A DNA stretch of 64,000 bases, from positions 5,963,566 to 6,027,565 of the forward strand of contig NC_087386.1 of the NCBI RefSeq assembly GCF_963675165.1. The letters are read 5' to 3'. Shown one piece after another: positions 1,416 through 58,074 of the stretch; position 1 is the stretch's first letter, and each line of letters begins with the position of its first letter. The position numbers were made by a program, and so were the translations under genes. This DNA is from Halichondria panicea (Eukaryota > Porifera > Demospongiae > Suberitida > Halichondriidae). Below the pieces are notes generated by a model, which worked only from the letters and a program-made list of their open reading frames with translations, ran no database searches and had not been told where the DNA came from.

Positions 1416-1525
1416 TGTTCATGATTTGATCATACTAGATCTACATGATTTGATCCTGCAGCTGTGCTTTGCATGAGCAAGCAAGCAACATCTAACACTT
1501 GTAGACTACATGGACTAGATCTAGA

Positions 1526-2739: not shown

Positions 2740-2772
<33 letters not shown>

Positions 2773-8100: not shown

Positions 8101-8404
8101 CACTCCTTTTCACATCGTTTATAAGAATTTACTGAATACGGAAAAATGAGCTGATTAAGAAAAGGTTCTACTTGGAGGCTCTGCAATACACAATTACTTA
8201 CTTTGAGGTATTGAAACAGTGCTCACAGATAGTGCCTCTAGTTTCCTCCACACTGCAATGTGCTATAGGTAGTGCACTGAATATAGTGTCCCCAGCAGAT
8301 ATAGACTCTTTAGTAAACACTCCTCGGCCTATCCCGTCAACTGTGCGCAGCTCTAGCGATGGAGGTAGTCCAACCGCAGCAGATAGCTTCTTCAGATCGT
8401 CCAT
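5116..8404 (-). CDS. SMYD copy C, complete SET-MYND gene with transposons in intron 1
   Basis: Exon 1 (8202-8404) encodes MDDLKKLSAAVGLPPSLEL, the GIGRGVF motif and CEHC, and ends at a GTAAGT donor. Exon 2 with the MYND cysteines lies about 1.5 kb further on, near 6615-6673. In the other copies this intron is only about 45 bp, so insertions have stretched it. Later exons give HKTEC (about 6440-6560), VPDDFLWSRKSQLL (about 6270-6373), NHSCRPN with CACERC (about 5930-6217), and the helical C-terminal domain. The last exon ends LARGQ with a stop at 5116-5118. The frame looks open throughout. Exon 1 and exon 2 still have matching phase (203 nt, then 58 nt), so splicing across the enlarged intron could restore the normal protein. 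Function is as for copy B, and together with B it is the likeliest active member. Confidence 0.75.
6815..7023. mobile_element. MITE, CCGTATAGCGGGTAA family, full length
   Basis: The two ends are inverted repeats of about 40 bp. The left end reads taccgcatagcgggtaag and the right end, reverse complemented, reads taccgtatagcgggtaat. Both continue into TTCGTGGGGTAAAA. A TA flanks each end. The 209-bp interior has no coding potential. It sits inside intron 1 of SMYD copy C. Confidence 0.8.
7129..8064. mobile_element. 936-bp DNA element with about 55-bp TIRs and a 9-bp direct repeat
   Basis: The left end (tagcctcaattccgggccgc) and the reverse complement of the right end (gcctcgattccaggtcac) align. 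The match continues through AAGAGAAAGGCG and CCTGGTATAC. The identical 9-mer attataaag occurs immediately outside both ends (7120-7128 and 8065-8073) and looks like a target-site duplication. Nine bases would suit a Mutator-like element, but this is inference. No transposase is visible inside. It accounts for most of the enlarged intron 1 of SMYD copy C. Confidence 0.75.
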
Positions 8405-8792
8405 ATCGATATCTAATGTCAATGCACTCTTAGCCTCGATTCCAGCCCGGCCCGTCTTTCTCAATTGAGAGCGGCCTATAATAGAGACTTCCCAGACCAA
8501 TTTGTTTCTAAAATAACGCTAGGTCATGAAACAGCAAGTCTCATGAATCAGCCGCCCTTCTTTTGGGAAGACCCAGCAAAAATGGCTGATTCATTGAAAT
8601 TTCAAAAACTGAGAGAGTGTACTCATCAGCCCAAGCAAACATCTTCCAAACACTAGCATTTAAACACTTTGTCATAAATATGAGATTTGGTCTCTTGTGC
8701 ACAATGACTGACCACTATTCATTTGTCAACAAGAATATATAATAAACAATCGTACATAGTCAGTTTGGTTATTGTCTGCAAGCTGCATGTAG

Positions 8793-10868
<2,076 letters not shown>

Positions 10869-10897
10869 TCTAACCTCGATTCCAGGCCGCACTGAAG

Positions 10898-12869
<1,972 letters not shown>

Positions 12870-13022
12870 TGCATGCTGGTCGATCGTGCATGTGTAGTGT
12901 GTAGGTAAAGATCATTCCTGATCCTAGAGATTGAGCAGCCCCTCCCCTCCAATCAAACCCACCGGATAAAGCATCTTCCAGGTCCAAGCAGTGTCTCTGT
13001 TTTCAAGGAGTCTCATAGCGCG
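12870..13022. promoter_or_regulatory. short divergent promoter region, SMYD-E / FAAH-1
   Basis: Only 153 bases separate the start codons of the minus-strand SMYD copy E and the plus-strand amidase. They must share or overlap promoters. I see no TATA box that I would defend. Confidence 0.4.
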
Positions 13023-28771: not shown

Positions 28772-29047
28772 GATGAGAGCTGAGAGGGGTTCTCTTGATC
28801 TTGGATCGTACGGATCGTCTCTTTGATAGGTACACTTCTTCTCTCCACGTGGGTGTAGTTTGTAGAAGGCGTGTCAGAGAGGGTGTGTGCTCAAGAAAGA
28901 GAACTGAGCTGAAAAAGAAGGTAAAAAGACAGCATATACATGCTACAGCTACCGACTGCTGGCTTTTACATACCTATGTACTATGGTTCTATACTGTACT
29001 TTAGTGTTCTGTGATATATCCGCCATTTAATATACTGATTCCATCCA

Positions 29048-29084
<37 letters not shown>

Positions 29085-29089
29085 CAACT
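28772..29089. promoter_or_regulatory. divergent promoter region, ZZZ3 / FAAH-2
   Basis: These 318 bp lie between two divergent start codons. They include a (CA)n tract at about 29050-29083 directly upstream of the FAAH-2 start. I cannot tell where transcription begins. Confidence 0.4.
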
Positions 29090-30934
29090 ATGCTGCTCTA
29101 CTTGATCCTGGGTGGTGTGTTGTGTGTACTGGCTCTCCTCAAGCTGAGGTTCTGGCTGTCCCGAACTCCAGTCTGCCACGGTCGAAAAGTGGCTCCGTTC
29201 ATGAAAAACATTCTACAAGATTCAGAGCAAATTCAATACGATCTCAAAGACGTTGTCGTCCCAGTCCTGTTTGGTTGGAAGTTCTCACTTGTAACTTGGT
29301 TGAGTTATACGCGAATCGGTCGTCTTCTTCTCGTCCCCTGGTTGCTACGATCTGCTGGAGTCGATCGAATGAGATCCTATTATATCCCTGAGAAACCCAC
29401 CTACTATCCTAATCCAGCCAAGCCTCCAATGACACGAGATAATTCAAGAGCTAATATCGCCAAGATTGCGGAACTAGTTGAGCGAGAAATCAGTGATGGA
29501 CATACTGAAGACTTTCATTTTCCGAGTGTTGCTGATTTTGTGCGTGCATATCGATGTGGTAACGTGACTCCTAGTGATGTGGCTATGACGGTGCTGGAGG
29601 CCATTGCTAACTCTGACCGAGCAACTCCTCCTCTGAGGGCCATTGTACAGAGCAACAGAGACGTGGTCCTTGCTATGGCCGCAGCCTCCACTCAGCGATG
29701 GAAGGACAACAAAACTCTCTCCCCTCTCGATGGAGTACCCGTAGCTGTTAAGGAAGGATTTAGAGTCGAACCATATCCCTTCAGAAGTGGTGGGGATTTC
29801 GTTCCTAAAATGTCGATAGGTATACCTGAGTCAGTGGCCGTGGATAATTTGAAGCGAGCTGGTGCTGTGATTATCGGAATGGCTAATCTGCAAGAGTTTG
29901 GTACGGGTACACTTGGTTCCAATCCCAACAAATCTCACTCCACTGCACGTAATCCGTACAATACTCAATGCTATCCTGGAGGCAGTTCATCCGGTTCTGC
30001 TGTTAGTGTAGCCGCTGGATTTTGTCCCATTGCTATTGGCACTGATGGTGGAGACTCAGTGAGGATACCTGCTGTTCTGTGTGGTGTGGTTGGACTTAAA
30101 CCAACGTATGGTTTGATAGATACAACTGGAATGCTTCCTCTGTCCTACAGTGTTGGAGTGCCTGGTCCTCTGTGCTCTAGTGTTCTCGATGCTGCCCTGG
30201 CAATGGATATCATGAGTAAAGGAGAGGACGGCAATCGATTGTCTCTGGATGGACTGGGAGAGGAGCGACTGGACGGACTTAACATTGGTGTGTACTGGGA
30301 CTACTTTCAACACGCTGACTCTGAGATAGTCACCCAGTGCAAGGCAGCCGTTAGTAAATTGGAGAGCCTTGGAGCCACCATTGTCAGTATTGCCATCCCT
30401 GAACTAGAGGAGTCTCGAGTTGCTCATTCCGTCTCCATTATCTCCGAGTTTAGCACAAGTTTGTTGGTAGACACGGACGCTCATTTTAATGACATGTGTA
30501 ATGAAACGCTCATGGTATTAACAGCAGGGTACCAAATGCCGGTGGTGAATTTCCTCAATGCACAGAAGCAACGATCGAGAGCTATTGCCGTCCTACAACA
30601 TCTCTTCGATGATAAGAAACTGGATGCAATTGTGTCACCAGGCACAGCGTGTGTAGCGCCTGCAATACTCCCTCAAGCCCTTTCCCATGGTTCCTCTGAT
30701 CTACAGCATTCCACCCAGTTGATGCGTTTTGCCTACCTTGCTAATTTGACTGGAGTTCCTGGTCTGGTTGTTCCGGTTGGCTACACTAGTGGCGAGGGCC
30801 TGCCCATTGGTCTACAGCTAATGGGAGGATGGTATCAAGAGAACACTCTCCTTAAAATTGGCTGGGCTCTCGAGAAAGGTTTCCCTCGAAACAAACCACA
30901 AGTCTTCTACGACATACTCAAGAAAAAGAACTGA
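29090..30934 (+). CDS. fatty acid amide hydrolase-like amidase 2 (intronless)
   Basis: This 614-residue paralogue of the amidase at 13023-14870 is also intronless. It has an N-terminal hydrophobic segment (about residues 1-20). Expected catalytic residues are Lys221 (PVAVKEGF), cis-Ser299 (GGSSSGS) and nucleophile Ser323. The residue just before the nucleophile is Asp322 (DGGDSVRIP), where the paralogue and the family normally have Gly. This still fits the loose amidase signature but lies in the oxyanion-hole loop. The first 137 residues and two internal stretches differ strongly from copy 1. The stretch beginning DGHTEDFHFP, the stretch around SVGVPGPLCSS, and the C terminus are almost identical at DNA level, which points to gene conversion. 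Substrate preference cannot be read from the sequence. Confidence 0.88.
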   Translation: MLLYLILGGVLCVLALLKLRFWLSRTPVCHGRKVAPFMKNILQDSEQIQYDLKDVVVPVLFGWKFSLVTWLSYTRIGRLLLVPWLLRSAGVDRMRSYYIPEKPTYYPNPAKPPMTRDNSRANIAKIAELVEREISDGHTEDFHFPSVADFVRAYRCGNVTPSDVAMTVLEAIANSDRATPPLRAIVQSNRDVVLAMAAASTQRWKDNKTLSPLDGVPVAVKEGFRVEPYPFRSGGDFVPKMSIGIPESVAVDNLKRAGAVIIGMANLQEFGTGTLGSNPNKSHSTARNPYNTQCYPGGSSSGSAVSVAAGFCPIAIGTDGGDSVRIPAVLCGVVGLKPTYGLIDTTGMLPLSYSVGVPGPLCSSVLDAALAMDIMSKGEDGNRLSLDGLGEERLDGLNIGVYWDYFQHADSEIVTQCKAAVSKLESLGATIVSIAIPELEESRVAHSVSIISEFSTSLLVDTDAHFNDMCNETLMVLTAGYQMPVVNFLNAQKQRSRAIAVLQHLFDDKKLDAIVSPGTACVAPAILPQALSHGSSDLQHSTQLMRFAYLANLTGVPGLVVPVGYTSGEGLPIGLQLMGGWYQENTLLKIGWALEKGFPRNKPQVFYDILKKKN

Positions 30935-35048: not shown

Positions 35049-35134
35049 AGGCTAAACCTTCCCTTGGAGTAATCTTATTTCTGTAGACTAGACCATCCCT
35101 GACGTCTGACTAGACAGTACTCACAAGACTAGCA

Positions 35135-38100
35135 ATGGCTACACAGAGAACAAAGGAAGACGCTGACAGGCAAAAGGTAGGTGTGTCTCTACTCAGTGTG
35201 TATTACAATGACACTACACCCACTGTCTCCACACAGGTCCTCCACTTGTCACACTCTTTGTATCGAAAGCGGCTACGAACCGAGTACCAGAAACTGCAGT
35301 CCTCCAAACGTTCTAAACAGCTGTCGTGTGTTCGTGATGATCTGCAGAGGAACAGGGCGTATCAGGACTCTCTGTATGGACCCCCCACTGAGACCACACC
35401 CACCTTTGCCACCCCACTACCTCCGGAGAACTGTACGTCTCTTGATCTCCCCCTCAAGGCCACTCTCGGTGAGCACACACCCTCACACACACACACACAC
35501 CACACACACACACACACACAACAGGTATGTCTGTATTCAATGGCAAGACTCAGTATATCAAGGTGTCAGTGACTCAGATCCCGGCACTCCACCCTCTCCC
35601 TCACTACAATACCTGGAGCTCCACTCAGGGAAACTTCCTAGTAGAGGACGAAACAGTCCTGCACAACATTCCTTATATGGGCGAGGAGGTCCTGGACAAA
35701 GACGAGGGATTTATAGAAGAACTGATCAGGAACTATGATGGAAAGATTCACGATGGTCGTGATGGAGGAGAGGGCATCGATGATGATATCCTAGTCGACC
35801 TTGTGGATGTCATGACTCAATTTGTGTGTAATCCTCCCAAATATATAAAGCAACAGCAGCAGCAACCACAACCCAGTGATACTGTCACTGTCAAGGTGGT
35901 CCCCCCTTTATAATAACGTGTAGTTGTATATATACATGTACATGTATTACACTTTTTCTTGGGAACTTTGTATCTGTTTCTAAAAAAGAGTATTAGACTA
36001 ACCCTCCCCTATAAAAACAGTACCTCTCTTTATACACCCTATCACCTCCCTCCCATAATTATAATAGAATCTATAATTATAGTGTGTGTATATTACACCT
36101 TTCTTTTCTGTATTACATATAAGACAATCGCATAGTGTACAGTGTGTGTGTTATGCCTGCCTCTGTTCACTTGTGTCTAGATGACTCAGAGTGACTACTT
36201 GTTCAGTGCACTAGGAGCAGCTGTCAATGAGAGCCCCACCTCACTGCGGAGGAGGTATCATAAGCTAACCACCAGTGAACAAGGGTCAAAGTGCATCCCC
36301 AACCTTGACGAGTAAGGCAACCACTCTTACAATATTATATCGTTTAGCGAGTAACTTGCGAATGAGGCAATTGAATAATTATTGGCAATTTAATTTTACG
36401 AGCATGCTGCATGGCGTGCAATATACTGGTACTGAGTATTTAGCTAAACTTTTGTTGACGACCCTCACTAAATAATTCGCTAAATTGCCAAATTTACCTG
36501 CTATACTGTACATATGTACTTGTAATCATTCCGTATATCATCTTCTTTAGTCCGAGCATAAAGCCCTTATCAAGGACGGAGGCACTGCACTCGTACCAAA
36601 CACTATTCTGTCGTCGCTGTTTCAAGTACGATTGTTTCTCCCACGGTTGGTACCCTGGCCCACCCTCTCCCACTCCCTGTCCCTCACAGTCGTCCCCTCG
36701 GAGGGAGCCCTGTGGACTACAATGCTTCCTGCACAAGGTCAGTCACTCATGGCTAGCCGGGTATAATGTCATTACATTAGCAGCCGCATAACCTGACTAC
36801 AGTCATTAAAAACCAAACTGCTATACTTACTTACATGTAGCTTACTTTTTAAACTAGTCCCCATGATTGTAAGCTATTCCAAATGTAACCATTTTTAGTT
36901 TGTCTTAGCACAGTTTATCACTAGCCTCGTTCCCAGGCCTTACTTTTTCTTGCTGTTGTCACTGTTCATCCATAAATCATAAGAAAGACATAGTGAGGCA
37001 GCAAAGAAAGAAATGGGCGTACAGTTAAGAAAAAGTAAGGCCTGGTTTGGGAAGATGCGTGATCCACAAGGATTTTTATGAACGTGGGCGATATGTAGCC
37101 CACAATCGTGACGTAAGGTATTCTCCCACGCATTCAGAGTTTTAATAAGACTGTACTGAGACAACCACCAAGCTGTGATGCAAGTCAGATCAGAGAACCA
37201 GCGTGGCCAGCTCTGGTGGCAGTAGCTACCTGCTATATGATAATGATGGCTAAGCTATTCTTGATCTATATACTACATGTATAGACTATAGCATGTAGAA
37301 AGACACAAGAAAAGGTGATAGTCTGATAGAATCTGAACACACAATTGCAAATTCAATCTAGATCATCTAAGGTATAGCTAGCTATAGTGCTTGCAAACTT
37401 CCAGTTCCAAGTCCATGTCCAGCTTGCTGCTTTATTAGTCATAGATCTCTGCGTGGGCAGTCCAACAGCTCTAGCTCAGTATGCCCACGCTCATTTTCAC
37501 CCTTCTACCACCCTTCTATACCCTCACGCGACTTCCCGATACAGGCTCTCCTTTTTCCTAACTCTACGTCTATTTCTTTCTTTATTCCTCCAATTAATAC
37601 CGTATTTATCTCATTGAACGAATAATACAGTATTTTATCTTATTGAACTATTGTGATAAAGAACAGAAAAAGGAGAGCCTGTGTAGAGGCTAGTTTAACT
37701 ACATTTGAGTACCATAATTATAATAATTATTGTGTCCCCAACTACAAAGACACCTTTTTGTGATTATGGTTGAAATGGGTAGAGATTATTGCTGAAATTA
37801 GTAAATGTTGAGCTCTGTATGTACAGTGTGTAGGCTAGTCTCATGAATTAGCCGCACCTCTCAGGGAGGAACATCTGAGCACTCTTTACGTGAAGTTATG
37901 ACGCAATGGAATGTATTACGTCACTGTACAAGCTAACAAAATGTAACCACATCCGCTATCTCTGTCAGTGCTTATTGCTCAACTGCATGTAAAGTTTCAT
38001 TATTTGCTGCCTCCTATTCAAGTCACCTGATACTTGTGAGCAATCTCATTGGTCACGTTGGAATTCCACCCAGACGGTCTTCTCCCTTAGGAAGGGCGGC

Positions 38101-41100
38101 TGATTCTTATAGTATAGTAAGGCCTGGATTAATAATTAAAGTATAAAAGTATAGCATATTCACACATTATTATAACACAACACTTATAATTACAGTTGTC
38201 ACACACTAGTAAGTTCAACTATAGCACAACGTATATAGAATAGTTAGTCTCAGTTTTTAGACACTGGCTGCTCTTGAAAGCAGTGGTTGTCGTTCATCGT
38301 TAGTCTCATTAATTGTCCCTCGGTTAGCCTCCAGTGACGCAGGTGTTTGAGGTGGATTCGGTCTAGATCGAGGAAGGTGCCTAAATCGAAAATAATAAAG
38401 CATAGGAAAAGAACACATGGCCATTACACATAAAGAAAACGTCAATCGGTGTACAAAGTTTGCAAGAGTTTTAGCAATAAACTTCTCTGTTAGTATTTGA
38501 AAAACCAAATTGCCAAAAAAAAATAAAATACCAAGAATCATGAAAACAAAAGAAATTGCAACTCCGATACAAGTGTTTGAATTACATAGTGTGCTATTAA
38601 TCCAAATTTGTACCTTAAAAACGGCAATAGAAATATATCGAGTTGCAGTCAGTAATCCACCAAAAGTTGCCATGGCCGACGTGAATGAACACTTGAATAC
38701 AAAGCAATTGATTTCAACATCAGAATTAAAATGCTCACTGCAGTTTGTTATTGGCACAGGTATCAGCACTGGAATAGGAAATATTGCCTTTGATTCATTA
38801 ATAAAAGCAAAACAGTCATGATTCGGTGTACAAGACTTAGTTATTGTGAATAAAAAGTCATTCCAAGTCGTTACCAAGATGAACATGCACACAATGACTG
38901 CACATATACCGAACACGAGTGATGCAAAGAATTTGTGCACTTGAGTTGTATCAATATAAATATCATTAGTTGTTATGTCTCTAGCAGGTTCAAAAGTCAT
39001 CACCACTTGTGGAGGTCCAAACACAGCATAGGCAAACCTTAAAAGAAAGTTAACTCCAAAGTTGCTCACCTTCACCAACTTTCTGTCTGCCCATCCCCAC
39101 CTTCGACAGGGCCAGAGGCAACCAATGACCACCAAAAACAAAATTAAAGCAACTAAGAACACACATGGAATCCCGTATCCAGTATCCAGCATAACATATG
39201 TCTCATAAGAAAGATTTAGCTTTCCCATCTTGACTAGATAGAACCTTGGAATCAAAGGAACTTTAAATACTTGAAAAATGTACAATTAAGCTCTTGAAAA
39301 ATAGCCAGATTTATGCTTATATTATATCTAAGATCAAGAAGCCTACTGGTAGACACATGACCAGTAAGGAATGTAGGCTGCCCACCTCTAGACGACCACC
39401 TCTAGACAAATCACCACCACAAAAAATAAAAGCCCTAAATTGAGGTTTAAAACTACACTTAGATCTGGTTGTTGTTTTTTTCAACCAATTTCGTGCACAA
39501 TTTTTGTGTAGAGCTATCAGGTAGTTCGACACTCTTCTCTTCTTGTAATAATTATACTCTTGCTAAGAAGATTGTGGCTTCAAATCATAATATATATGTA
39601 CTTGTGGTTTCCTGGTAATATTTCCTTGTGGTTACGTAACAATCATGTTTGTGGCTTGTAGTGTTGTACAGCTAATACAGCTCTAGCCTCCTTCACAAGG
39701 CCTCAACAAGGAGGCCTGCTACTGACTGCTAGTGCATGCGCAAAATTATTGGACAATTTCCCCGTAAAGTTTCTCATTAAACAGAAATTTTACCAGAAAA
39801 AATATCCTGAATAAGTATACAGACAAAGAATACAAATTTATAATAAAGTCATACACAGAGCCCTAGCTATCTAGAGACAGAGCTGTACGTTTGGTGCAGC
39901 AGCTAGACTCAACATGTAGACTTTCACCAAGGTTAGTAGCAGATGGGTGTGGCCTGTTCATATAGGCTATTGTCAGCCTTCCCTCCGTTCAGACGATTGT
40001 CATCCACACTGTTGCAGGCTTGTGAGTCCTTTGTTAACATAGCAGGCTAAGGGTAGCTATTAGAATGCTATCGGATAGGCTAGAAACCTTCACAATCGCA
40101 CTTCCATTCGTTGTGACGTCATTGTTTTACTGAGCATAATAAATTATACGATGTTATCCAAATTACCCACTTTCTGGGTAATAGATGGCGCATGCGCAAA
40201 CAGTCGATACCAGGCCCATCTTCAGTGCGGCCTGGAATCGAGGCTAATACACCTCGAGCCCAGGACAAAAGCTGTATTATCTGTACAGCACGAGATAACC
40301 GATTTATAGCCGTGATTATAATGAGCTTCCGTGTTCCTTATACAGGAGGACAAAAGCTGTAATTATAAGCTGTATTAGCTGTACAGCACGAGGGCATGAC
40401 ATCATAACCGACTTATAGCCGCGGTTATAATGAGATTAATTCTTTCCCTGTTCCTTAGTAGACCATATTTGATATCGCAAATATAACAACAATAAGTCGA
40501 ATGCAGTATTATTTTTATAAAAGGGCCTCCTGTACTACTATTTCGATGCGTTACATTGCAGGTCAATTCTGAGAACCTAGCGTCACTGCTGACTCAGCAC
40601 TCTGGTCCCAAAGGGAGGAGAGCTAACAAAGCGACCAATCAGATTGCAGCAAAGCCGACATGTGACTCCAGTGACGAATCAAGCTCAGAAGGTTCAGATG
40701 ACGAGTGGTTGGCTGAGGGGTCAAAGGACAATCCTTCCATCACTGGCGGAGAGGGGTCATCAAAGGTCATTGTGGAGGAGGCAGTAAAAGAAAAGACTGA
40801 ATGGAATGGCTCGGAAACGACATACTTTCGAATGCTTCATCCGATTTTTGTCAACAATTTCTGTGCCATAGCTGAACTACTACGAACCAAGACGTGCCTC
40901 GAGGTGTTTGAGCATGCTCAGTGCGTTGCTATGGAGATGGGTCAGCCCAAAGATCGGAGACTAGCAGCAAAGAAAAAGAAGAAGAGTATGAGGTAATGTA
41001 TATATAATAGTTAGACACTGTTTAGGAAGTTTCTACATGATTTAGAAGCCCAAAGGGCTGGTTGTAGTATCCCGAACACAGTGAGGGTTCTACTAGCCCT

Positions 41101-44100
41101 GAGGACTTCTAAATCATGTAGAAACTTCCTAAACAGTGTCTAAGCATTTTAGATCATAGCAACCATGAGTATTTAGCCAATCAGATTTGAATGTTCTTAT
41201 CTAATCTTTGCTACATGATTTTCTAAGTGAAGTACATGATTTTCTATTGAAGTACATGATTTTCTATTGAAGTACATGATTTACTAAATTGGATAGAACA
41301 TTTCCTCTAACCAATCAGATTGCAGTATTTATGACAAACATGGATCTAATTATATATACAGTATGTGTATGTGTACCGTATTACTTGAATGTTTGCGAGC
41401 ATGCTATTTTGCTATTTTTGAGCCTTTACACGAATAAAATCAGTACCAGCTAGTACTTGTATGGCATCATGGCCTTGCCAGAATGCAAAGGTTAGATCGT
41501 AAAATCTGCTGATTTGGAATATTCACAAAGGTTTTTTCACCAGCAAAATATTCTAGTATAGTATGTATGTAATACAGTATGTGTGTGTTGTGTGTTACAG
41601 GTCTTGGACGGCACACCATCGCAAGATCCAGTCAAAGTTGGAGGGTCAAGTGACATCGCAATCTAACTACCAGCCATGTGATCATCCCGGTGTGTCATGT
41701 GACAGCAACTGCTCCTGTGTCTCCTCAAGGAACTTCTGTGAGAAGTTCTGTAGATGCAGTCAAGAGTGTCCCAACAGGTACACACTGTTATATTCTGTTA
41801 TAGAGTGATTTTTCTGAATATGGGCCTGTTTTGATAGCTAACTTTGAGTTAGGATTGTGCATTTTCACAATTAGAATATAGCCCTTTGATATACCTGTAT
41901 CTACGTACAACTGCAGGTTCCCTGGATGCCGTTGCCGTGGCTCCTGCTCCACTAAACACTGTCCTTGCTTCCTGGCCGTGAGAGAATGTGATCCAGACTT
42001 GTGTAACCTTTGTGGAGCGGGTGCGCAGTAGAATATAACCCCCCCCCCAATGTTGTAGAATAATGACAATAATTATCATGTCTGTGATGTAATAGGGGTG
42101 TGGTCAAAAATGTGGGAGTGGCCAAAAAAATTGCACTCACGCGTGCCCAAATCCCCCCTAACTTTTAATCCTACATGAAACCCTGCCTGGTTGATCCTTT
42201 AGACAAGACCCCACGAAATATACTGAGTTAGCATGTGCAATAAAAAAAGCAGTTAAACCCATATTTTGCTAAATTACATTCGCATGGAGGTATAGACTAT
42301 AAATGTATATTGCTATCTTTAACATGGAGGTTTGACCATAGCACATTGGTTGGTACCTTTAACATGGAAGTTGGGCCATATGATGTACCTTTAGCATGGA
42401 GGTACGAAATATGCTGAGTTAGCATGTACAATAAAAAGCAGTTAAACCCATATTTTGCTAAATTACATTCGCATGGAGGTATAGACTATAAATGTATATT
42501 GCTATCTTTAAAGGTAGCGACACTATGGCCAAACCTCCATGCTAAAGATAGCAATATACATTTATAGTCTATACCTCCATGCGAATGTAATATAGCAAAA
42601 TATGGGTTTAACTGCTTTTTATTGTAATCAATATAGCATACATTTGTATTTCGTACCTCCATGCTAAATAAAGGCAATAAAATTATAATTATGGCCAAAC
42701 CTCACATGCTAAACATAGTCAATTATGTATTGCCTTTAGCATAGAAGTACGAAATATGCATGTGCAATAAAAAGCAGTTAAATCCACATTACATTCGCAT
42801 GGAGGTGGTATAGGCATATTGCTATCTTTAACATGGAGGTTTGACCATAACATTGCTAACATGGAGGTTTGTTTTACTTCCTTGGAATTATCAATTAGCA
42901 GAAAATGCTCAGAGCCTATATATGGTGTGGTCCCACTGTGTATACACTTGGACAGTGGTTGGGGTTAATGTTTTCTCTAATAAACGTTTGCATTTCAAGT
43001 GAGGTGAAAAGGTTTACTAAAGAGTGCTCATCTCTCCTCAGGTGATGGTCTTACTGTGGGCTCTGCTGGCTACAGTGGCTGCAGCTGCAAGAATGTGTCC
43101 ATCCAGCGTGGTCTCAGCAAGCACTTGTTACTGGCTCCCTCGGATGTGGCAGGGTGGGGCATCTTCCTCAAGGACAGAGTTCAGAAGAATGCTTTCCTCA
43201 GTGAATATTGTGGAGAGGTTAGTCAGTTAGTGTGCACAGTATGTGAAGGGTGACCTTTGTATTATCCATTATCCTTGTTGCCCTCTACGTGTATGTACTT
43301 CGTGCGTTGAACTTGATTACAAAAATATGTAATGTAAAAAGACATAGTCACTGTGTGTGAGCTCTTTCTCTTTGTCTTTGTTGCCAGGTCATCTCTCAGG
43401 AAGAGGCAGACAGACGAGGGAAGGTCTATGACAAGTACATGTGCAGCTTCTTGTTCAACCTTAATCACGGTATGCCCCCCCCTTAATCACGGTATGCCCC
43501 CCCCTTAATCACGGTATGCCCCCCCCCCTTAATCATGGTATGCCCCCCCCCTTAATCATGGTATGCCCCCCCTTAATCACGGTATGCCCCCCCCCCCCTT
43601 AATCACGGTATGCCCCCCCCCTTAATCATGGTATGCCCCCCCCCTTAATCACGGTATGCCCCCCCCCTTAATCACGGTATGCCCCCCCCCTTAATCACGG
43701 TATGCCCCCCCCTTAATCATGGTATGCCCCCCCCTTAATCACGGTATGCCCCCCCCCTTAATCACGGTATGCCCCCCCCTTAATCATGGTATGCCCCCCC
43801 CCTTAATCATGGTATGCCCCCCCCCTTAATCACGGTATGCCCTTGCATCGATCAGTGAAGCATGTAATGAAGTTGGTTTAATAATAACTACACACAGTCA
43901 GCGCTACCGTATCCCGCGCCTCGAGGCATAACTAATGAAAACACCACTCCCCCCCCTTGTAATTAGTTCTCCTAATGATTGCAGCTACAGTGTACTGTCA
44001 GTATTATACACATATCCACTGTATACCTAATGTCACTGTGTGTTGTGCTGACTCAACAGATTATGTGGTGGACGCAACTCGCAAAGGCAACAAGATCCGT

Positions 44101-44530
44101 TTTGCCAACCATTCAATTAACCCAAACTGCTTTGCTAAAGTTATAATGGTGAGTGGTGACCACAGGATTGGCATCTTTGCCAAGAGGAACATAGAGTCTG
44201 GGGAGGAGCTCTTCTTTGACTATCGGTAAGAGCACTTTACTGTACCCATTTAATAATTATTAAACTGGTAATAGGTGGTTTTTTTCAGAATCAGGCCTGT
44301 TTTGATAGCTAACTTTGATTGTCTGTCACTCTAGTTGGGATTGTCCATTTTCACTTTTGAAAGATGCATTTTGATGCTCTTTAGTACTTCTATCTAATGT
44401 GTGTCCAAATCTTCTGTTTCTGAAGAAAAAGCGTAAGCTATTTGTAAGTGTGATTGTGTGTGTACTTGTATGCAGATATGGACCGACTGAGCAGCTCAAG
44501 TACGTGGGCATTGAGAGAGAAGCACTCTAG
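35135..44530 (+). CDS. EZH2: EZH histone H3K27 methyltransferase, complete copy
   Basis: EZH is the catalytic subunit of Polycomb repressive complex 2. I read twelve exons: 35135-35176 ([14 protein letters not shown]), 35237-35468, 35525-about 35894 ([32 protein letters not shown]), 36181-36311 (SANT-like), 36551-36737 ([12 protein letters not shown], the MCSS cysteines), 40562-40992 (second [19 protein letters not shown]), and the CXC exons 41601-41777 and 41916-42020. The SET exons are 43042-43217 ([14 protein letters not shown]), 43388-43469 ([13 protein letters not shown]), 44060-44225 ([15 protein letters not shown]) and 44476-44530 (YVGIEREAL). The NHS catalytic core and CXC cysteines match human EZH2. 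The donor after exon 3 (CAAG/GTGGTC) is the least certain. The long intron 36738-40561 hosts an opposite-strand membrane protein gene, and the intron after 43469 a minisatellite carrying its own 5' splice site. Confidence 0.92.
36325..36512. mobile_element. MITE relic with CCGTATAGC-like right end, EZH intron 4
   Basis: The right end (aaatttacctgctatactgt) is a variant of the CCGTATAGCGGGTAA terminus. The interior repeats the 'cgtttagcgagtaact' and 'gcaatttaattttacgag' kind of sequence. The shortened duplicate copy is seen at about 45700-45748. Confidence 0.5.
36922..37055. mobile_element. TAGCCTC-ended MITE in EZH intron 5
   Basis: The left end (ctagcctcgttcccaggcct) continues as TACTTTTTC. 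The inverse of the right end (gaaaaagtaaggcctggttt) continues as GGGAA. The core is about 80 bp, and the duplicated unit lacks this insertion. Confidence 0.6.
37541..37692. mobile_element. MITE with ACAGGCTCTCCTTTTTC ends
   Basis: The left end acaggctctcctttttc is mirrored by gaaaaaggagagcctgt at the right. The interior repeats 'cgtatttatctcattgaacg' and 'cagtattttatcttattgaa'. It lies in EZH intron 5. Confidence 0.6.
37843..38113. mobile_element. probable MITE with TGAATCAGCCGCCC-like ends
   Basis: The left end (catgaattagccgcacctc) and the inverse of the right end (aagaatcagccgcccttcct) match imperfectly. The same end sequence (tctcatgaatcagccgccc) also appears near 8538, upstream of SMYD copy C. 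Confidence 0.5.
38257..39285 (-). CDS. multipass membrane protein nested in EZH intron, copy 1
   Basis: This single-exon frame of 342 codons lies on the strand opposite EZH, inside intron 36738-40561. I do not recognise the family. The likely start is either the first Met (39285) or the later one at 39228 ([14 protein letters not shown]). Five hydrophobic segments are visible: around residues 38-58 ([14 protein letters not shown]), 120-142 ([16 protein letters not shown]), 200-220, 245-270 ([16 protein letters not shown]) and 290-310. Between the first two lies a conserved block with [21 protein letters not shown] and IYIDTTQV. A Cys- and Asn-X-Ser/Thr-containing loop follows. The C terminus ends with ERQPLL, a dileucine-type sorting motif of the [DE]xxxL[LI] form, which suggests endosomal or lysosomal routing. 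A receptor or channel role would be a guess. Confidence 0.7.
   Translation of the reverse strand: MYIFQVFKVPLIPRFYLVKMGKLNLSYETYVMLDTGYGIPCVFLVALILFLVVIGCLWPCRRWGWADRKLVKVSNFGVNFLLRFAYAVFGPPQVVMTFEPARDITTNDIYIDTTQVHKFFASLVFGICAVIVCMFILVTTWNDFLFTITKSCTPNHDCFAFINESKAIFPIPVLIPVPITNCSEHFNSDVEINCFVFKCSFTSAMATFGGLLTATRYISIAVFKVQIWINSTLCNSNTCIGVAISFVFMILGILFFFGNLVFQILTEKFIAKTLANFVHRLTFSLCVMAMCSFPMLYYFRFRHLPRSRPNPPQTPASLEANRGTINETNDERQPLLSRAASV
41012..41142. mobile_element. foldback hairpin element in EZH intron
   Basis: Arms ttagacactgtttaggaag and cttcctaaacagtgtctaa enclose the paired 'catgatttagaagccc' and 'gacttctaaatcatg' blocks. The terminal tagacactgttt is identical to that of the element at 26748. 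The second EZH copy has a different foldback at the equivalent spot. Confidence 0.7.
41212..41287. repeat. short tandem repeat, about 21 bp x 3-4
   Basis: The unit is approximately gaagtacatgattttctatt, repeated three to four times in the EZH intron after 40992. Confidence 0.8.
42225..42870. repeat. CATGGAGGT-rich repeat array in EZH intron, with an inversion point
   Basis: The motif (A/G)CATGGAGGT recurs many times, separated by set phrases (tatagactataaatgtat, 'attgctatcttta', 'aaaaagcagttaaaccca'). Around 42510 the order flips to the reverse complement (acctccatgc), giving a palindrome centred on 'aggtagcgacactatgg'. Equivalent arrays flank the large palindrome in the second EZH copy (51490-51960 and 54893-55210). 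Confidence 0.8.
43460..43849. repeat. minisatellite of 17 units carrying the exon-10 5' splice site
   Basis: The unit is TTAATCACGGTATGCC followed by about 5-10 C, roughly 22-24 bp. The first unit is the real end of EZH exon 10 plus the start of its intron (TTAATCACG/GTATGC). I count 17 occurrences of TTAATCA(C/T)GGTATGCC, so there are up to 17 consecutive donor-like sites, six of them with CATG instead of CACG. The duplicate EZH has 7 units. Confidence 0.93.
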
Positions 44531-45203: not shown

Positions 45204-45529
45204 ATGTCGTCCACTCTGGGAAACTTCCTAGTATAGGACGAAACAGTCCTGCATGCACAACATTCCTTATATGGGCGAGGAGGTCCTGGACAAAGACGAA
45301 GGATTTATAGAAGAACTGATCAGGAACTATGATGGAAAGATTCACGATGGTCGTGATGGAGGAGAGGTGTCAAGGTGGTCCCCCCATATAATAATGACGT
45401 TGGAGGAGAGGTGTCAAGGTGGTCCCCCCATATAATAATGACATAATGTGTATTATACATTCCTCTGTCTACCTTTATATCCTCCCTATAAAACAGTACC
45501 TCTGTTATGCACCATATCACCCCTCCCCT

Positions 45530-46613: not shown

Positions 46614-47633
46614 TTAGACATTGTCCGCTCCCGAAAGCAGTGGTTGTCGTTCATCGTTAGAGTCATTAGTTGTCCCTCGGTTAGCCTCATGTGACCCATG
46701 TGCTAAATGCAGTCTAAGTCGATGGATTAAAAAAAACGACACAGGAGACAGAGATATCATCACTCCACAAATAGGAAACAATAATTGGTGTAAAGTGTTT
46801 GCAATATCATTAGCAATAAATGCCTCATTCTTGGTTCTTGGTGGTTGACTTAAAATACCCACCATAAAAAAAACACTTAATACGAAGAAACAACTAGAAA
46901 TTAGAAGTCTGATAACATAGTTTGAAATACGTAGTGTGCGATAAATCCAAAATTGTACCTTAAAAACGGCAATAGAAAGGTATCGAATGGCAGTCAGTAA
47001 TCCACCAAAAGTTGCCAAGGCCGATATGAATGAATATGTGAATACAAAGCAACTGATTTTAACATCATTAGAATAGTCACTGCAGTTTGTTATCGGTACT
47101 ATATAACTTAAAAACGCTGATCCATTATTAAAAGGTGATGATCCATTAATAAAAGCAAAACAGTCATGAGTCAGTGTACAAGAGTCAGTTATTGTGAATA
47201 AAAAGTCATTCCAAGCCGTTACCAAGATGAATATGTACACGGAGACTGCACCTGAACCTAACGCGAGTGATGCAAAGAATTTGGGCACTTGAGTTGTATC
47301 AATATAGATATCATCAGTTGTTACGTCTCTAGCAGGTTCAAAAGTCATTATCACTTGTGGAGGTCCGAACACAGCATTGGTAAACATTAAAGTCATGTCA
47401 ACTCCAAAGTTGCCTACCTTCACAAACATTCTGTTTGCCCATCCCCACCTTCGACAGCACGAGAGGCAAAGATAGACTATAAAAAACAAAGTATAAAGAA
47501 GTCCAATTACACATGGAATCCAGTATCCAGTATCCAGCATAACGTATGTCTGATAAGAAAGATTTAGCTTTCCCATCTTGACTAGATTGAACCTTGGAAT
47601 CAGAGGAACTTTAAATACTTGAGAAATGTACAA
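46614..47633 (-). CDS. multipass membrane protein nested in second EZH copy, copy 2
   Basis: This 339-codon single-exon frame sits at the duplicated position of the gene at 38257-39285, again antisense to EZH. The layout is conserved: [43 protein letters not shown], five hydrophobic segments, and a C-terminal ERQPLL sorting motif. Yet by eye I count about 28 differences in the first 100 residues after MGKL. They are clustered in the first membrane segment (VIGLLYTLFFIVYLCL against [16 protein letters not shown]) and in the loops. The surrounding EZH exons hardly differ, and the 3' flank is about 90% alike. The frame has stayed open despite this divergence, which argues for a used protein. The family is unrecognised. 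Confidence 0.7.
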   Translation of the reverse strand: MYISQVFKVPLIPRFNLVKMGKLNLSYQTYVMLDTGYWIPCVIGLLYTLFFIVYLCLSCCRRWGWANRMFVKVGNFGVDMTLMFTNAVFGPPQVIMTFEPARDVTTDDIYIDTTQVPKFFASLALGSGAVSVYIFILVTAWNDFLFTITDSCTLTHDCFAFINGSSPFNNGSAFLSYIVPITNCSDYSNDVKISCFVFTYSFISALATFGGLLTAIRYLSIAVFKVQFWIYRTLRISNYVIRLLISSCFFVLSVFFMVGILSQPPRTKNEAFIANDIANTLHQLLFPICGVMISLSPVSFFLIHRLRLHLAHGSHEANRGTTNDSNDERQPLLSGADNV

Positions 47634-47867
47634 GCTCTTGAAAAATACTATTAAAGATCAAGAGTATATAAGAAGTAAACTACTGGTAGACACATGACCA
47701 TATAATAATAATGACTACTGGTAGACACATGACCATATAATAATAATAATGAATGTGAACTACTGGTAGACACATGACCAGTAAGATGAATGTCATTAAC
47801 CCTTTCCCCGTTGAAGCCGTTATTTGACGGCCACTCTAGTGGTAGTTTTCAAAAAATTCGCTGTGCA

Positions 47868-48237: not shown

Positions 48238-49719
48238 CATAGATGATACAGTATACTGACGTGGATGTGAAACGGCCTAGTATCCGGAGGGAATTACGGG
48301 AAATGTCTGAAGCTATCATAGTAACGAGCAGATTTTGTCAGAAACCCTGCAACTGTCATGTTTATATAGCAACCAGAGCGTAGTAAACAGTGTTCCGTGT
48401 CTGAAAACTGGTGAAAATGACCAGCACACATTGGTACTTGCATTGGGCTTGCAGGTAAGACTAGTTTCCCTAAGCTTACGAGTGAATATCATGTTGTAGT
48501 ACATATTTTCCTGTAAAAATACTTTGTGTGAGATTTTTGGCTGTGGACAGTAAATATTCAGGTTACCATTCAGTAGAAATACTTGCAGTACACTGTAAAC
48601 TACGAGGAGAATCTATGTTTGACAACTGTTATGAAAGCTTAAGTGCTGTACAAAGGCCTAAAAGCATGAGTTGGTTGCACTTTTTGTATTTCTAAACTGT
48701 TGAGCCTACTATGGACATCGATAGTGGATATGGTTTGGCATGTATCTTTCAAGAAATACACTTGGATCAGGCTTGTTGATTGTTGGGCTTAATGCTGACG
48801 TAATTTTTTTACCAATTACCAATTTCGTTCACAGTTTTTGTATGTTTTCAGTAGTTCGATTTCAGTAGTTAGACACTCTTCATTATGCTAAGATTGTGGC
48901 TTCAAATCATGTATGTACGTGTGGTTTCCCCGGCAAATTGAGTAATATTTCCTTGTAGTAACAATCGTGTTTATAGCTTGTTCACTAACAGAATGTGCTC
49001 CTGTTATCACTCATTTACTCGTGCCCTCGTGCTGTACAGCTAATACAGCTCTAGCCTCGATCCCAGGCCGCACTTCCCACTTCACTTCTTTCCTATGAAG
49101 GCCGGTGAAGGAGGCTAATACAGCTCAAGCTCGCGGGCAAGATCATAACTGCGATTTAATTCTTTCCCTATTCCTTAGTAGACCACATTTGATACAGCAA
49201 ATATAACAACAATAAGTCGAATGCAGTATTATTTTTATAAAAGGGCCCCTGTACTACTATTTTGATGCGTTACATTGCAGGTCAATTCTGAGAACCTAGC
49301 ATCACTGCTGACTCAGCACTCTGGTCCCAAAGGGAGGAGAGCTAACAAAGCGACCAATCAGATTGCAGCAAAGCCGACATGTGACTCCAGTGACGAATCA
49401 AGCTCAGAAGGTTTAGATGACGAGTGGTTAGCTGAAGGGTCAAAGGACAATCTTTCCACCACTGGCGGAGAGGGGTCATCAAAGGTCATTGTGGAGGAGG
49501 CAGTAAAAGAAAAGACTGAATGGAATGGCTCTGAAACGACATATTTTCGAATGCTTCATCCAATTTTTGTCAATAATTTCTGTGCCATAGCTGAACTACT
49601 ACGAACCAAGACTTGCCTCGAGGTGTTTGAGCATGCCCAGTGCGTTGCTATGGAGATGGGTCAGCCCAAAGATCGGCAACTGGCAGCGAAGAAAAAGAAG
49701 AAGAGTATGAGGTACGTAT

Positions 49720-50620: not shown

Positions 50621-51489
50621 ATACATTACTCGAATGTTTGCGAGCATGCTATTTTGATTTTTTTGAGCCCCTTTATACAAGAATACCAGCTAGTACTTGT
50701 ATGGCATCATGGTCCTTGCCAGAATGCAAAGGTTAGATCGCAAAATCTGCTGATTTGGCACATTCACAAAGGTTTTTTCACCAGTAAAATATTCTAGTAT
50801 AGTATGTACATGTATGTAATACAGTATGTGTGGGTGTGTGTTGTGTGTGCAGGTCTTGGACGGCACACCATCGCAAGATCCAGTCAAAGTTGGAGGGTCA
50901 AGTGACGTCGCAATCTAACTACCAGCCATGTGATCACCCCGGTGTGTCATGTGACAGCAACTGCTCCTGTGTCTCCTCAAGGAACTTCTGTGAGAAGTTC
51001 TGCAGATGCAGTCAAGAATGTCCCAACAGGTACACACTGTTATATTCTGTTATAGGGTGATTTTTCTGAATATGGGCCTGTTTTGATAGCTAACTTTGAG
51101 TTAGGATTGTGCATTTTCACAATTAGAATATAGCCCTTTGATATACCTGTATCTACGTACAACTATAGGTTCCCTGGTTGCCGTTGCCGTGGCTCCTGCT
51201 CCACTAAACACTGTCCTTGCTTCCTGGCCGTGAGAGAATGTGATCCAGACTTGTGTAACCTTTGTGGAGCGGGTGCGCAGTAGAATATAACCCCCCCCCC
51301 CAAATGTTGTAGAATAATGACAATAATTATCATGTCTGTGATGTAACTAGATCTAGTGTGATGTAATAGGGGTGTGGTCAAAAATGTAGGAGTGGCCAAA
51401 AAAATTGCACTCACGCGTGCCCAACTCCCCCCCCCCCCCAACTTTTAATCCTACATGAAACCCTGCCTGGTTGATCCTTTAGACAAGAC

Positions 51490-52965: not shown

Positions 52966-53097
52966 TTAGATACTGTTTAGTCGGTATCTATGGGAATTAT
53001 AAGCCCGCAGGCACTCGTAGTACCCTCGCTTTGCTCGGGATACTACAGCAGGCCTTTGGGCTTATAATTCCCATAGATACCTCCTAAGTTATAGATA
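52966..53097. mobile_element. foldback hairpin element
   Basis: Paired blocks 'ggtatctatgggaattataa' and 'ttataattcccatagatacc' surround 'gtagtaccctcgctttgctc'. The design is the same as at 26748 and 41012, with a slightly different arm (ttagatactgttt). It abuts the left arm of the large palindrome. Confidence 0.7.
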
Positions 53098-54887
53098 GTA
53101 CATGGGCATGAGGTATCTATGTGTTATAGTGTCCCATATCACGAGGGCTTTGCCCGAGGGATGAGGGACACTATAACCATAGATACCGAATGCACATGTG
53201 CTAACTGATTTAGATCCCACTTTTCATTGGCTGCCTCAGGCAAGAAGTGTATCTATAAAAGCAGCAAGCCTTAGCAACAGCTTTATTTTTGAAAATGTCC
53301 TGTTTTGACAAGCTAGATGATTTCTGCTTCTCTGCTAAAAAACCTTTGCATTGGCCTTGCTTCAACATTGGAATGGACAACTGGTGACTCCACCTTGTGC
53401 AGGAAGCACTCTGCAACAAATGAGCCCAGCCTCCTCTTTTCTCTGCACTCAAGCCCCACCCCCAGCTCAAGCTTCTCAGTAAACTATTCTGATATGTACG
53501 GCTAGCTAGCAAGGAACAGCTTGCAGCAATGCTACAGTGCACTATCATTCCCAAAAAGACACAGGAGTCTACTGTTTGAAACATGGCTGCAGGATAGAAA
53601 CAGAAGTCAGGAGGAAGAAGTTGACAAATACTACAAGTTGAAGACATGCTTTCATGCTTGTGACAATGGACCCATAATCATTGGCTCTTAGTGTTCCTCG
53701 TAAAGACAAGAAAAGATACTGGTGAACCCTACCATCAACCCAGCAAACGCTATAGAAACTGGTAGTGAAACTGAACAGCCATAGCTAATTATCATGCAGC
53801 TAGCTACAGCTTTATTATCATTTCTGTGCATTCAAAAAAATTATACTTGTACTTTATACCCTCAAGCTTATAATTCCCTGGGAAACTATGAGATTATGGC
53901 TCATAATTCCCTGCTAAACACACACAAGTGGGATCTAAACAGTATCTAACTATTATATGTATATTGCTATCTTTAAAGGTAGCGACACTATGGCCAAACC
54001 TCCATGTTAAAGATAGCAATATACATTTTTAGATCCCACTTGTGTGTGTTTAGCAGGGAATTATGAGCCATAATCTCATAGTTTCCCAGGGAATTATAAG
54101 CTTGAGGGTATAATTAAAGTACAAGTATAATTTTTGAATGTACAGAAAGGATAATAAAGCTGTATAGCTGCATGATAATTAGCTATGGCTGTTCAGTTTT
54201 TTCACTACCAGTTTCTATAGCGTTTGCTGGGTTGATGGTAGAGTTCACCAGTATCTTTTCTTGTCTCTACGAGGAACACTAAGAGCCAATGATTTTAACA
54301 GTTCTGGGTCCATTGTCACAAGCATGATGAAAGCATGTCTTCAACTTGTAGCATTTGTCAACTTTGTCCTCCTGTTTCTATCCTGCAGCCATGTTTCAAA
54401 TTGCAGTAGACTCCTGTGTCTTTTTGGGAACGATAGTGCACTGTAGCATTGCTGCAAGCTGTTCCTTGCTAGCTAGCCGTACATATCAAAACAGTTTACT
54501 GAGAAGCTTGAGCTGGGGTGGGGCTTGAGTGCAGAGAAAGAGGAGGCTGGGCTCATTTGTTGTAGAGCGCTTCCTACACAAGGTGGAGTCACTAGTTTGT
54601 CCATTCCAATGTTGAAGCAAGGCCAATGCAAAGGTTTTTTTTAGCAGAAATCATCTAGACTAGCTTGTCAGAACAGGACATTTTCAAAAATAAAACTGTT
54701 GCTAAGGCTTGCTGCTTTTATAGATACACTTCTTGCCTGAGGCAGCCAATGAAAAGTGGGATCTAAATCAGTTAGCACATGTGCATTCGGTATCTATGGT
54801 TATAGTGTCCCTCATCCCTCGGGCAAAGCCCTCGTGATATGGGACACTATAACACATAGATACCTCATGCCCATGTACTATCTATAA
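53088..54887. repeat. 1.8-kb near-perfect palindrome
   Basis: The left arm 53088-53939 (about 850 bp) is the reverse complement of the right arm 54028-54887, with few mismatches. The spacer of about 88 bp is itself partly palindromic (atgtatattgctatcttta, then taaagatagcaatatacat). It is the same sequence as the inversion point of the array in the first EZH copy (about 42497-42565). Each arm includes a small hairpin with 'cacgagggctttgcccgagg'. Open frames inside the arms show no recognisable domain. Confidence 0.85.
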
Positions 54888-55761
54888 CATAGTCTATACC
54901 TCCATGCGAATGCAATATAGCAAAATATGGGTTTAACTGCTTTTTATTGTAATCAATATAGCATACATTTGTATTTCATACCTCCATGCTAAATAAAGGC
55001 AATAAATTATACATGTACATGATTATGGCCAAACCTCACATGCTAAACATAGTCAATTATGTATTGCCTTTAGCATAGAAGTACGAAATATGCATGTGCA
55101 ATAAAAAGCAGTTAAATCCATATTTTGCTACATTACATTCGCATGGAGGTATAGGCATATTGCTATCTTTAACATGGAGGTTTGACCATAACATTGCTAA
55201 CATGGAGGTTTTTTGTACTTTCTTGGAATTATCAAAAAGCAGACAATGCTCAGAGCCTATATATGGTGTGGTCCCACTGTGTACACACTTCGACAGTGGT
55301 TGGGTTAATGTTTTCTCTAATAACGTTTGCATTTCAAGTGAGGTGAAAAGATATACTAAAGAGTGTCCATCTCTCCTCAGGTGATGGTCTTACTGCGGGC
55401 TCTGCTGGCTACAGTGGCTGCAGCTGCAAGAATGTGTCCATCCAGCGTGGTCTCAGCAAGCACTTGTTACTGGCTCCCTCGGATGTGGCAGGGTGGGGCA
55501 TCTTCCTCAAGGACAGAGTTCAGAAGAATGCTTTCCTCAGTGAATATTGTGGAGAGGTTAGTCAGTTAGTGTGCAAAGTGTTGTAATGATCACTTTAGAT
55601 GTATGTACTTCGTGCATATTACAAAAATGTAAAAGACATGATAGTCATTGTAGGTATGTGAGCTCTTTCTCTTTGTCTTTGTTGCCAGGTCATCTCTCAG
55701 GAAGAGGCGGACAGACGAGGGAAGGTCTATGACAAGTACATGTGCAGCTTCTTGTTCAACC

Positions 55762-55915
55762 TTAATCACGGTATGCCCCCCCCCTTAATCACGGTATGCC
55801 CCCCCCCCTTAATCACGGTATGCCCCCCCTTAATCACGGTATGCCCCCCCTTAATCACGGTATGCCCCCCCCCCTTAATCATGGTATGCCCCCCCCCCCC
55901 TTAATCACGGTATAC
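55762..55915. repeat. minisatellite of 7 units with the duplicated 5' splice site
   Basis: The unit is the same as at 43460-43849 (TTAATCACGGTATGCC plus a C run), beginning with the exon 10 end of the second EZH copy. I count 7 units, one with CATG, against 17 in the first copy. The difference arose after duplication. Confidence 0.93.
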
Positions 55916-56594
55916 CCTTGTATCCGGTGAAGCATGTAATGAGGTTGGTTTGCCCTAACTAATAATAACTATACACAGTCAGCGCTATCTAATGAAAACA
56001 CCACCTCCCCCCCCCCACTTGTGATTAGTTAAACCAGTTCTCCTACTGTCAGTATTATACACATATCCACTGTATACCTAATGCCCTCTAATCACTGTGT
56101 GTTGTGCTGACTCAACAGATTATGTGGTGGACGCAACTCGCAAAGGCAACAAGATCCGTTTTGCCAACCATTCAATTAACCCAAACTGCTTTGCTAAAGT
56201 TATAATGGTGAGCGGTGACCACAGGATTGGCATCTTTGCCAAGAGGAACATAGAGTCTGGGGAGGAGCTCTTCTTTGACTATCGGTAAGAGCACTTTACT
56301 GTACCCATTAATTTTTAGGGTGTTTTTCAGAGTCATGTCTGTTTTGATAGCAAACAGTAACTCTAGTTGGGATTGTCCATTTTCACTTTACTTTCATAGC
56401 TCTTTGATACTTCTATCTAATAGTGTGCCTAAATCAATGATTTCTGTCCGGGCTTCTGTTTTCTGTTTCTGAAAAAAAGTGGGAGCTATTTTTAAGTGTG
56501 ATTGTGTGTGTACTTGTATGCAGATATGGACCGACTGAGCAGCTCAAGTACGTGGGCATTGAGAGAGAGGCACTCTAGTCTAGTGGACATTAAC

Positions 56595-56799: not shown

Positions 56800-58074
56800 A
56801 TGGAGTTGAATGCGATTGGCATTAAAAGACAACAGAACTCGCTTCTCTTCGCGTCCCCTCCACTCCCTGTGGAGCATGTCATCTACTTCCAAGGAGATGT
56901 ACAGGTAACGTGTATATAATGTCCTCAGGCACAATCAATCCCTCCTCCCCACACACAGAACACTCACAATGCTATGACTGCTCAACCACCCGAGGTGGCA
57001 CAATGGCAAGAATGGTGTCTAGAGAATACTTGTACGATGCTGCAGTGTTCATTCCCTGCGGCGGCCGTGTGGATTGTCAGACCTAGTCGAATGCTGCGTC
57101 AAATGTTCAGCTGCTTCCACAACTTTGTCCAGTCCTCGCTGATCGGCGTGCCTACCTACAACACGACGTATGGTTGTCTCCTCCAGTTAGAAGCCTTGCT
57201 CAAGGATGCAATACAGAATGCCATTCGAAAGGGCCACTTGGAGATGGACGTACATGCTGCTTTGAATTTACCTGTGGTGTTGGTGGGTTTCAGCAAAGGC
57301 TGTGTCGTCCTCAATCAGATAGTACATGAATTGGTCAACTATGTCATCCCTCGAGGCTTGCAAAGAAGTCGACACTTTAACCTTTCAGTCTCCACTCCAA
57401 GTATGCACTCAGGTCAAAGGTCGGCACATTCATCGCCCACCCCCCCTCGTTCTACCCGATGGGCCAGCCCCGAAGTTGGAAGACGAACGGGCGATAGTTC
57501 TAATACTGAGAGACAACGGGACAGCACTAGAGACAGTACCGAGAGGCTGAAAGGGCAACATAGCTTACCAGAGCTATCGGTAGAGGAAGCATCAGGTAAC
57601 GGTAGACCACGATCAGCTGATTCTCGTTCACGACTGAGTTCAACCTCATCAACACGAAGTGAACGCGGGGCTACTCCGGAGAGGGCTCTTCTGCAACCGT
57701 ATAGAAGCAGTAGTTTTGGAGCGCCTGCCAGCAAGCACATTCTTAAACCAACAGAGACTGATGTACGTAATATAACGATGTTTCTACGACGACTGAAAGG
57801 GCTGTACTGGTTGGACGCTGGTCATTCTGGTGGACATGGTGCGTGGGTAACTGACAGTGAACTATTGAGCATGCTCGCTGGACTGGGTGTGACTGTGTGG
57901 GTGCATGTGACCCCCCAGCAAGTTAGAGACCCACACAGAGTGTGGATAGGAGAGGAGCAGAGAGAGTTTGTCGATAAATTGAGAGGATTTGGAGCTACTG
58001 TTCACGAGACAATGCATTTTGAGAATGAAGAACGATCTTTAGATAATCACTTTCGAGTCCTCACTAAATTGTAA
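56800..58074 (+). CDS. C2orf69: C2orf69 homologue, complete
   Basis: Human C2orf69 is a mitochondrial protein with an alpha/beta-hydrolase-like fold whose loss causes a severe childhood disorder. Exon 1 (56800-56904) gives MELNAIGIKRQQNS through YFQGDVQ. Exon 2 (56959-58074) gives NTHNAMTAQPPEVAQW to the end, 406 residues in all. Matches to the human protein include YFQGDVQ, MFSCFHNFVQSSLIGVP, VGFSKGCVVLNQ (GxSxG nucleophile elbow), YWLDAGHSGGHGAWVT, VHVTPQQVRDPHRVWIG and the ending NHFRV, whose His may be catalytic. A Ser/Arg-rich insert (about residues 165-275), probably disordered, replaces the shorter linker of the human protein. The first exon and part of the second exist also at 44762-45203 through the tandem duplication. 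Confidence 0.9.

Follow-up and report, generated by a model that had tools for sequence, protein, structure and literature searches.

In a 64,000-nucleotide stretch of the Halichondria panicea genome (the window in what follows; contig NC_087386.1, positions 5,963,566 to 6,027,565 of the forward strand), the end of an EZH exon and the 5′ splice site that follows it are repeated in tandem, and the same arrangement recurs in a second copy of the gene. The question raised by this locus is which of the repeated donors could yield a working protein, and what the others might do for the gene. The coding sequences concerned are the following.

40562-40992, 41601-41777, 41917-42020, 43042-43217, 43388-43469, 44060-44225 and 44476-44530, plus strand: seven C-terminal exons of EZH copy 1, covering the CXC and SET domains and a part that we take to be SANT2-like; the spliced frame is open to the stop codon.
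43388-43469, plus strand: the exon of copy 1 whose end is duplicated (...CSFLFNLNH, phase 1).
44060-44225, plus strand: the downstream SET exon of copy 1, 166 nt.
49281-49711, 50853-51029, 51169-51272, 55381-55556, 55689-55770, 56119-56284 and 56524-56578, plus strand: seven C-terminal exons of EZH copy 2, located by blastn against copy 1.

When joined, the seven exons of copy 1 match the Pfam families SET (1.2e-24) and preSET_CXC (2.8e-10), and the best match of the protein among solved structures is EZH2 (PDB, E = 4.2e-83). The combination of CXC and SET domains with EZH2 as the top solved structure identifies the gene as EZH. The Pfam families of the EZH N-terminus (PF18118 and PF11616) gave no match and were equally silent in the control genomes (0/14), which makes their absence here uninformative. 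Splicing at the first donor joins FNLNH to DYVVD, and the alignment to human EZH2 is gapless at this junction.

Copy 2 lies in tandem, 12 kb downstream, and its seven exons are 96.3-99.4% identical to those of copy 1 without gaps (blastn). Between the two copies, 19 codon changes are synonymous and 5 nonsynonymous (dN 0.0059, dS 0.081 by NG86, dN/dS ~0.07), where neutrality of one copy would predict about 38 nonsynonymous changes (P = 3e-11). Over six stretches, introns 2-6 show 2.2-7.5% substitutions, compared with 8.4% for the 3′ flank and 12.4% for intron 1, which is gappy. Constraint on the C-terminal half of both copies is probable, although gene conversion would be a formal alternative. 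Since both SET-coding copies appear conserved, transcripts are presumably spliced successfully across the array. A six-frame genome search with the SET part returned 11 matches, four of which are exons of copies 1 and 2 (93-97% identity); the remaining seven are 42-50% identical, as expected of other SET genes. No array-free or third EZH-like SET locus was found by this search, in which the best candidates were scored.

The repeats themselves were delimited with TRF and by parsing the units.

43459-43842, plus strand: array 1, 17 units of exon end plus 5′ splice site.
55760-55917, plus strand: array 2, 7 units, the last of them with GTATAC.
43470-43475, plus strand: donor 1 of copy 1 (GTATGC), the sole donor of the 17 that keeps the SET frame open.

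TRF reports a period of 23 with 16.8 copies and 93% matches for array 1, and a period of 24 with 6.8 copies for array 2. The unit of both is TTAATCACG followed by GTATGCC, the EZH exon end with its 5′ splice site. Array 1 begins inside the last 11 bases of exon 43388-43469, and the exonic part of its first unit (43461-43469) is the last 9 bases of that exon. Counted by the pattern TTAATCA[C/T]GGTAT[G/A] followed by C3-C12, the units number 17 and 7. The C runs are, in order, 8, 8, 10, 9, 7, 12, 9, 9, 9, 9, 8, 8, 9, 8, 9, 9 and 3 in array 1 and 9, 10, 7, 7, 10, 12 and 3 in array 2. GT is intact in 24/24 units (17 + 7); this pattern itself requires GT, and a unit lacking it is excluded by the regular spacing of 21-26 bp between successive donors throughout both arrays. 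The donors are identical except for C or T at position -2 and the single GTATAC. An earlier note on this DNA had described the exon end plus splice site as the unit of a minisatellite at 43460-43849 with 17 donor-like sites in a row, each keeping a potential GT donor, and a seven-unit counterpart in the second EZH copy. All of this is borne out, TRF, the unit parse and the exon boundary being in agreement; its unit length of 22-24 bp is narrower than the range found. The CAC/CAT variants were considered as coding evidence and rejected: T at the CpG in 7/24 units is what CpG decay would produce, and the synonymous reading as His carries no weight.

Across the 131-Mb assembly the exact unit pattern has 22 matches, all inside arrays 1 and 2, the two last units (C3) falling outside the pattern used for this search; the reversed pattern, used as a control, has none. 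Three 10-kb stretches elsewhere, a sample too small for a rate, contained no array with a period of at least 10 and more than four copies. Homopolymers are error-prone in some long reads at lengths of 7-12 C, and the arrays hold runs of just this size, so that the true arrays might be much shorter or the C runs wrong. Such an assembly or consensus error is scarcely credible here, since there are two separate arrays of one design that differ in unit number, C runs and flanks, and the assembly is contiguous (131 Mb in 39 contigs).

Scoring the splice site of every unit, as the earlier note had suggested, separates the array donors hardly at all. With the bases that we assume for the 5′ end of U1, donor 1 has a predicted pairing energy of -4.4 kcal/mol and the other array donors -4.2 to -4.4 kcal/mol. 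The corresponding values for five other donors of copy 1 are -6.1 to -8.2 kcal/mol (copy 2: -6.0 to -8.2), which makes donor 1 the weakest of the six donors checked in copy 1. Donor 1 is no stronger than the other array donors, and nothing in the sequence itself explains why it should be preferred.

The consequences of choosing a later donor were obtained by joining the exons in silico with each possible donor in both copies. In copy 1, all later donors (16/16) run into one and the same stop codon within the first unit that is inserted: the initial C run, C8, brings the TAA of TTAATC into frame. This stop lies 171-514 nt before the last exon junction. Donors 7, 10, 12, 14 and 16 were candidates for in-frame insertion, their inserts being divisible by three, yet these inserts contain the same stop. 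In copy 2, where the first C run is 9, the six later donors all end prematurely, five in the next exon and one within the insert; from these stops to the last junction the distance is 79-171 nt. The frame is thus left open by 0/16 later donors in copy 1 and 0/6 in copy 2. Skipping of exon 43388-43469 or of exon 44060-44225 produces a frameshift. The mixed insertions into the SET domain that had been expected from later donors therefore give way to one early stop in copy 1 and to premature ends in copy 2. Nonsense-mediated decay (NMD) generally applies to a stop codon more than 50-55 nt before the last junction, and the stops of 22/22 later donors lie well before it (79-514 nt), as in alternative splicing coupled to NMD. 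As predicted from these joins, the outcome is probably binary: donor 1 gives a working SET domain, and any other choice a truncated SET domain and an NMD target.

The closest known system is intron 18 of human ABCA7, where a C-rich 25-bp VNTR has the exon 18 donor as its first two bases; it is described as having 23.7 units in the reference, with a range of about 12 to 427 among people (PMC5954066). According to the same account, splicing at the next GT keeps one unit in the mRNA and yields a frameshifted NMD substrate in ~2% of transcripts, a share that is independent of array length, whereas longer arrays go with more skipping of exon 19 and with lower expression. The EZH arrays resemble this case, as far as it is described there, in being C-rich repeats whose first GT is the exon donor. 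They differ in that the EZH unit also carries exonic bases (CCTTAATCACG), with C runs of 7-12 between units, and in that the later donors of EZH copy 1 all reach one in-frame stop. The reported effects of length, namely skipping of the next exon and lower expression, are a feature of ABCA7 and would be conjecture for EZH.

We consider it likely that the EZH array is a tolerated, donor-spanning intronic minisatellite, in which donor 1 would be dominant and a low level of unproductive splicing would leak through the others; donor usage and decay are inferred here. As befits such a repeat, the array begins at the 5′ splice site of the exon and repeats that site, and GT is kept in the further units. 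Donor 1 would be the ancestral site, the only one to give a working SET domain, and would be used in most transcripts. Occasional use of a later donor would produce an early-stop transcript that NMD should remove. Array length would be largely tolerated at a small cost in unproductive splicing, and the next exon might at times be skipped, as has been measured in ABCA7. The inverse correlation of VNTR length with ABCA7 expression calls for caution, in that length need not be neutral (PMC5954066).

The earlier note had seen a regulatory role in the array, and selection on the extra donors was accordingly considered. It was rejected: intact GT in 24/24 units (48 bases) is equally expected under neutrality, with P ~0.38 at an assumed 2% per site and 0.14 at 4%, and turnover of units would make the argument for selection weaker still. 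A role of this kind could take the form of unproductive splicing as a dial, with the array diverting a regulated share of the pre-mRNA to later donors and the amount of EZH being set by array length or by a splicing factor such as a poly-C binding protein. We regard this as unlikely. It would agree with the finding that all later donors (16 + 6) are unproductive, with stops beyond the limit of the NMD rule, and with the presence of the array in both constrained copies, but random frames would be mostly unproductive too and the selection signal on the extra donors is no greater than chance. The literature, in the portions drawn on, mentions human EZH2 together with poison exons and NMD. ABCA7 can be read both ways, its expression falling as the VNTR lengthens while unit retention (~2%) stays independent of length (PMC5954066).

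A different function is suggested by the pairing of neighbouring units. The octamer GGUAUGCC is nearly self-complementary (with two G-U wobbles), and 22/22 neighbouring donor pairs (16 + 6) are predicted to form 8-bp hairpins of -8.5 to -9.0 kcal/mol, by which donor 1 would be masked. In 16 folded array lengths of at least two units (2-8, 12, 16 and 17 units for copy 1, 2-7 units for copy 2), donor 1 is predicted to be 0-5% unpaired; the other five donors of copy 1, folded in shorter, 142-nt contexts, reach 31-67%. The array might then mask itself, each GGUAUGCC pairing with that of the next unit and the donors being hidden in hairpins with C-rich loops; access of U1 to donor 1 would be set by timing and by the number of units, and longer arrays would lead to exon skipping or intron retention. 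This we hold to be quite improbable. Even when one unit is folded by itself, donor 1 is predicted to be just 7% unpaired in copy 1 and 20% in copy 2, which means that its masking does not depend mainly on the array. Compared with shuffled sequences, the fold of the entire array is only weakly better (z = -1.75, with 3/100 shuffles as good), and about 5% of octamers starting with GGT are self-complementary by chance. The two ideas can be combined: an array of near-identical donors that mask one another, labile in length, would act as an on/off dial for this Polycomb methyltransferase, with the amount of EZH set by the number of units and the folding time, and with a single stop awaiting every transcript of copy 1 that bypasses donor 1. 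We rate this combination as highly unlikely.

The preferred reading, that of a tolerated minisatellite, is accompanied by a plausible history of the repeat. The last unit of both arrays has C3 followed by TTG, presumably the ancestral intron, and the penultimate unit carries CAT in both. The array probably predates the EZH duplication, judging from its presence in both copies and their common 3′ end. Unit number and C-run order otherwise differ, and at least one array has therefore changed length since the duplication. The repeated stretch has CCTT at either end (CCTTAATCACGGTATGC-CCTT), and reading from both ends we infer the ancestral sequence AA-CCTT-AATCACGGTATGC-CCTT-G. The flanking CCTT could have seeded the first tandem duplication of exon end and donor, leaving C3 between the units. 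Growth of the C runs from C3 to C7-12 and expansion of the array, by slippage or unequal exchange, would have come next, with duplication of the EZH segment as the last step of this suggested order.

Minisatellites that span a splice donor are already known from ABCA7 and from human IFI6 (6-16), and the EZH arrays add a further case. In IFI6 the minisatellite supplies several splice donors (Turri, Cuin and Porter 1995, as cited in PMC4526556), two downstream units being used to give three mRNA species (via PMC4526556). Its units carry splice donors, as do those of EZH, where their use is predicted; the alternative donors of IFI6 are said in that account to encode isoforms, whereas every later EZH donor is predicted to truncate the protein. 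Internal tandem repeats have also been described at exon-intron boundaries of human segmental duplications (PMC2812944). In the cases given there, as here, a minisatellite sits in a recently duplicated gene and can alter its exon-intron structure; those cases concern changes in gene structure, often with alternative transcripts, whereas in EZH the ancestral boundary stays and the copies of the unit lie downstream in the intron. The portions of the literature drawn on that link EZH2 or enhancer of zeste with VNTRs, minisatellites or splice sites contain no comparable repeat.

The two arrays present the spliceosome with 17 and 7 near-identical 5′ splice sites in competition, a naturally occurring series in the same intron of two constrained gene copies. 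They make it testable how the spliceosome chooses one donor among equals and whether array length affects output. They also extend repeats of the ABCA7/IFI6 kind beyond humans and to a gene that acts on chromatin. Were length to set EZH dosage, Polycomb silencing would be tuned by a heritable dial that mutates rapidly.

Copy 2 appears to be 5′-truncated. Its homology to copy 1 begins at about 45210 (45206-45450 against 35600-35920), inside what we take, by resemblance to EZH2, to be an N-terminal EZH-like exon; a Pfam scan of 35114-35569 gave no match. Copy 2 has TAG at a GAG of copy 1, plus an insertion and a deletion, and at the edge of its truncated exon a 44-bp unit containing a C6 run is duplicated with 100% identity (45357-45442). 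Immediately before copy 2 begins lies a truncated version of the downstream gene, whose full ORF (56920-58071) matches Pfam C2orf69. Copy 2 may encode a short EZH or supply alternative 3′ exons; its SET exons look constrained (dN/dS ~0.07).

The window holds several other features. Two minus-strand ORFs without a Pfam match, 38260-39285 (342 aa) and 46617-47657 (347 aa), belong to the duplication unit, one per EZH copy, and are apparently nested in an EZH intron. Intron 3 of copy 2 contains an inverted repeat (53084-54892) with arms of ~0.9 kb and 91% identity to its own reverse complement; intron 3 of copy 1 measures ~1 kb, and the repeat, perhaps a mobile element, has no other match of more than 150 bp among those listed in the window. 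Positions 1-12900 are a cluster of repeated segments, in which, of two scanned minus-strand ORFs, one matches SET and the other MYND below the cut-off, presumably as SMYD-like genes; (CA)n tracts of 317 bp (9328-9644) and 258 bp (11441-11698) lie at 9-12 kb. Two ORFs of the Amidase family (PF01425), at 12909-14867 and 29039-30931, are 16 kb apart and share ~89% DNA identity over 1 kb.
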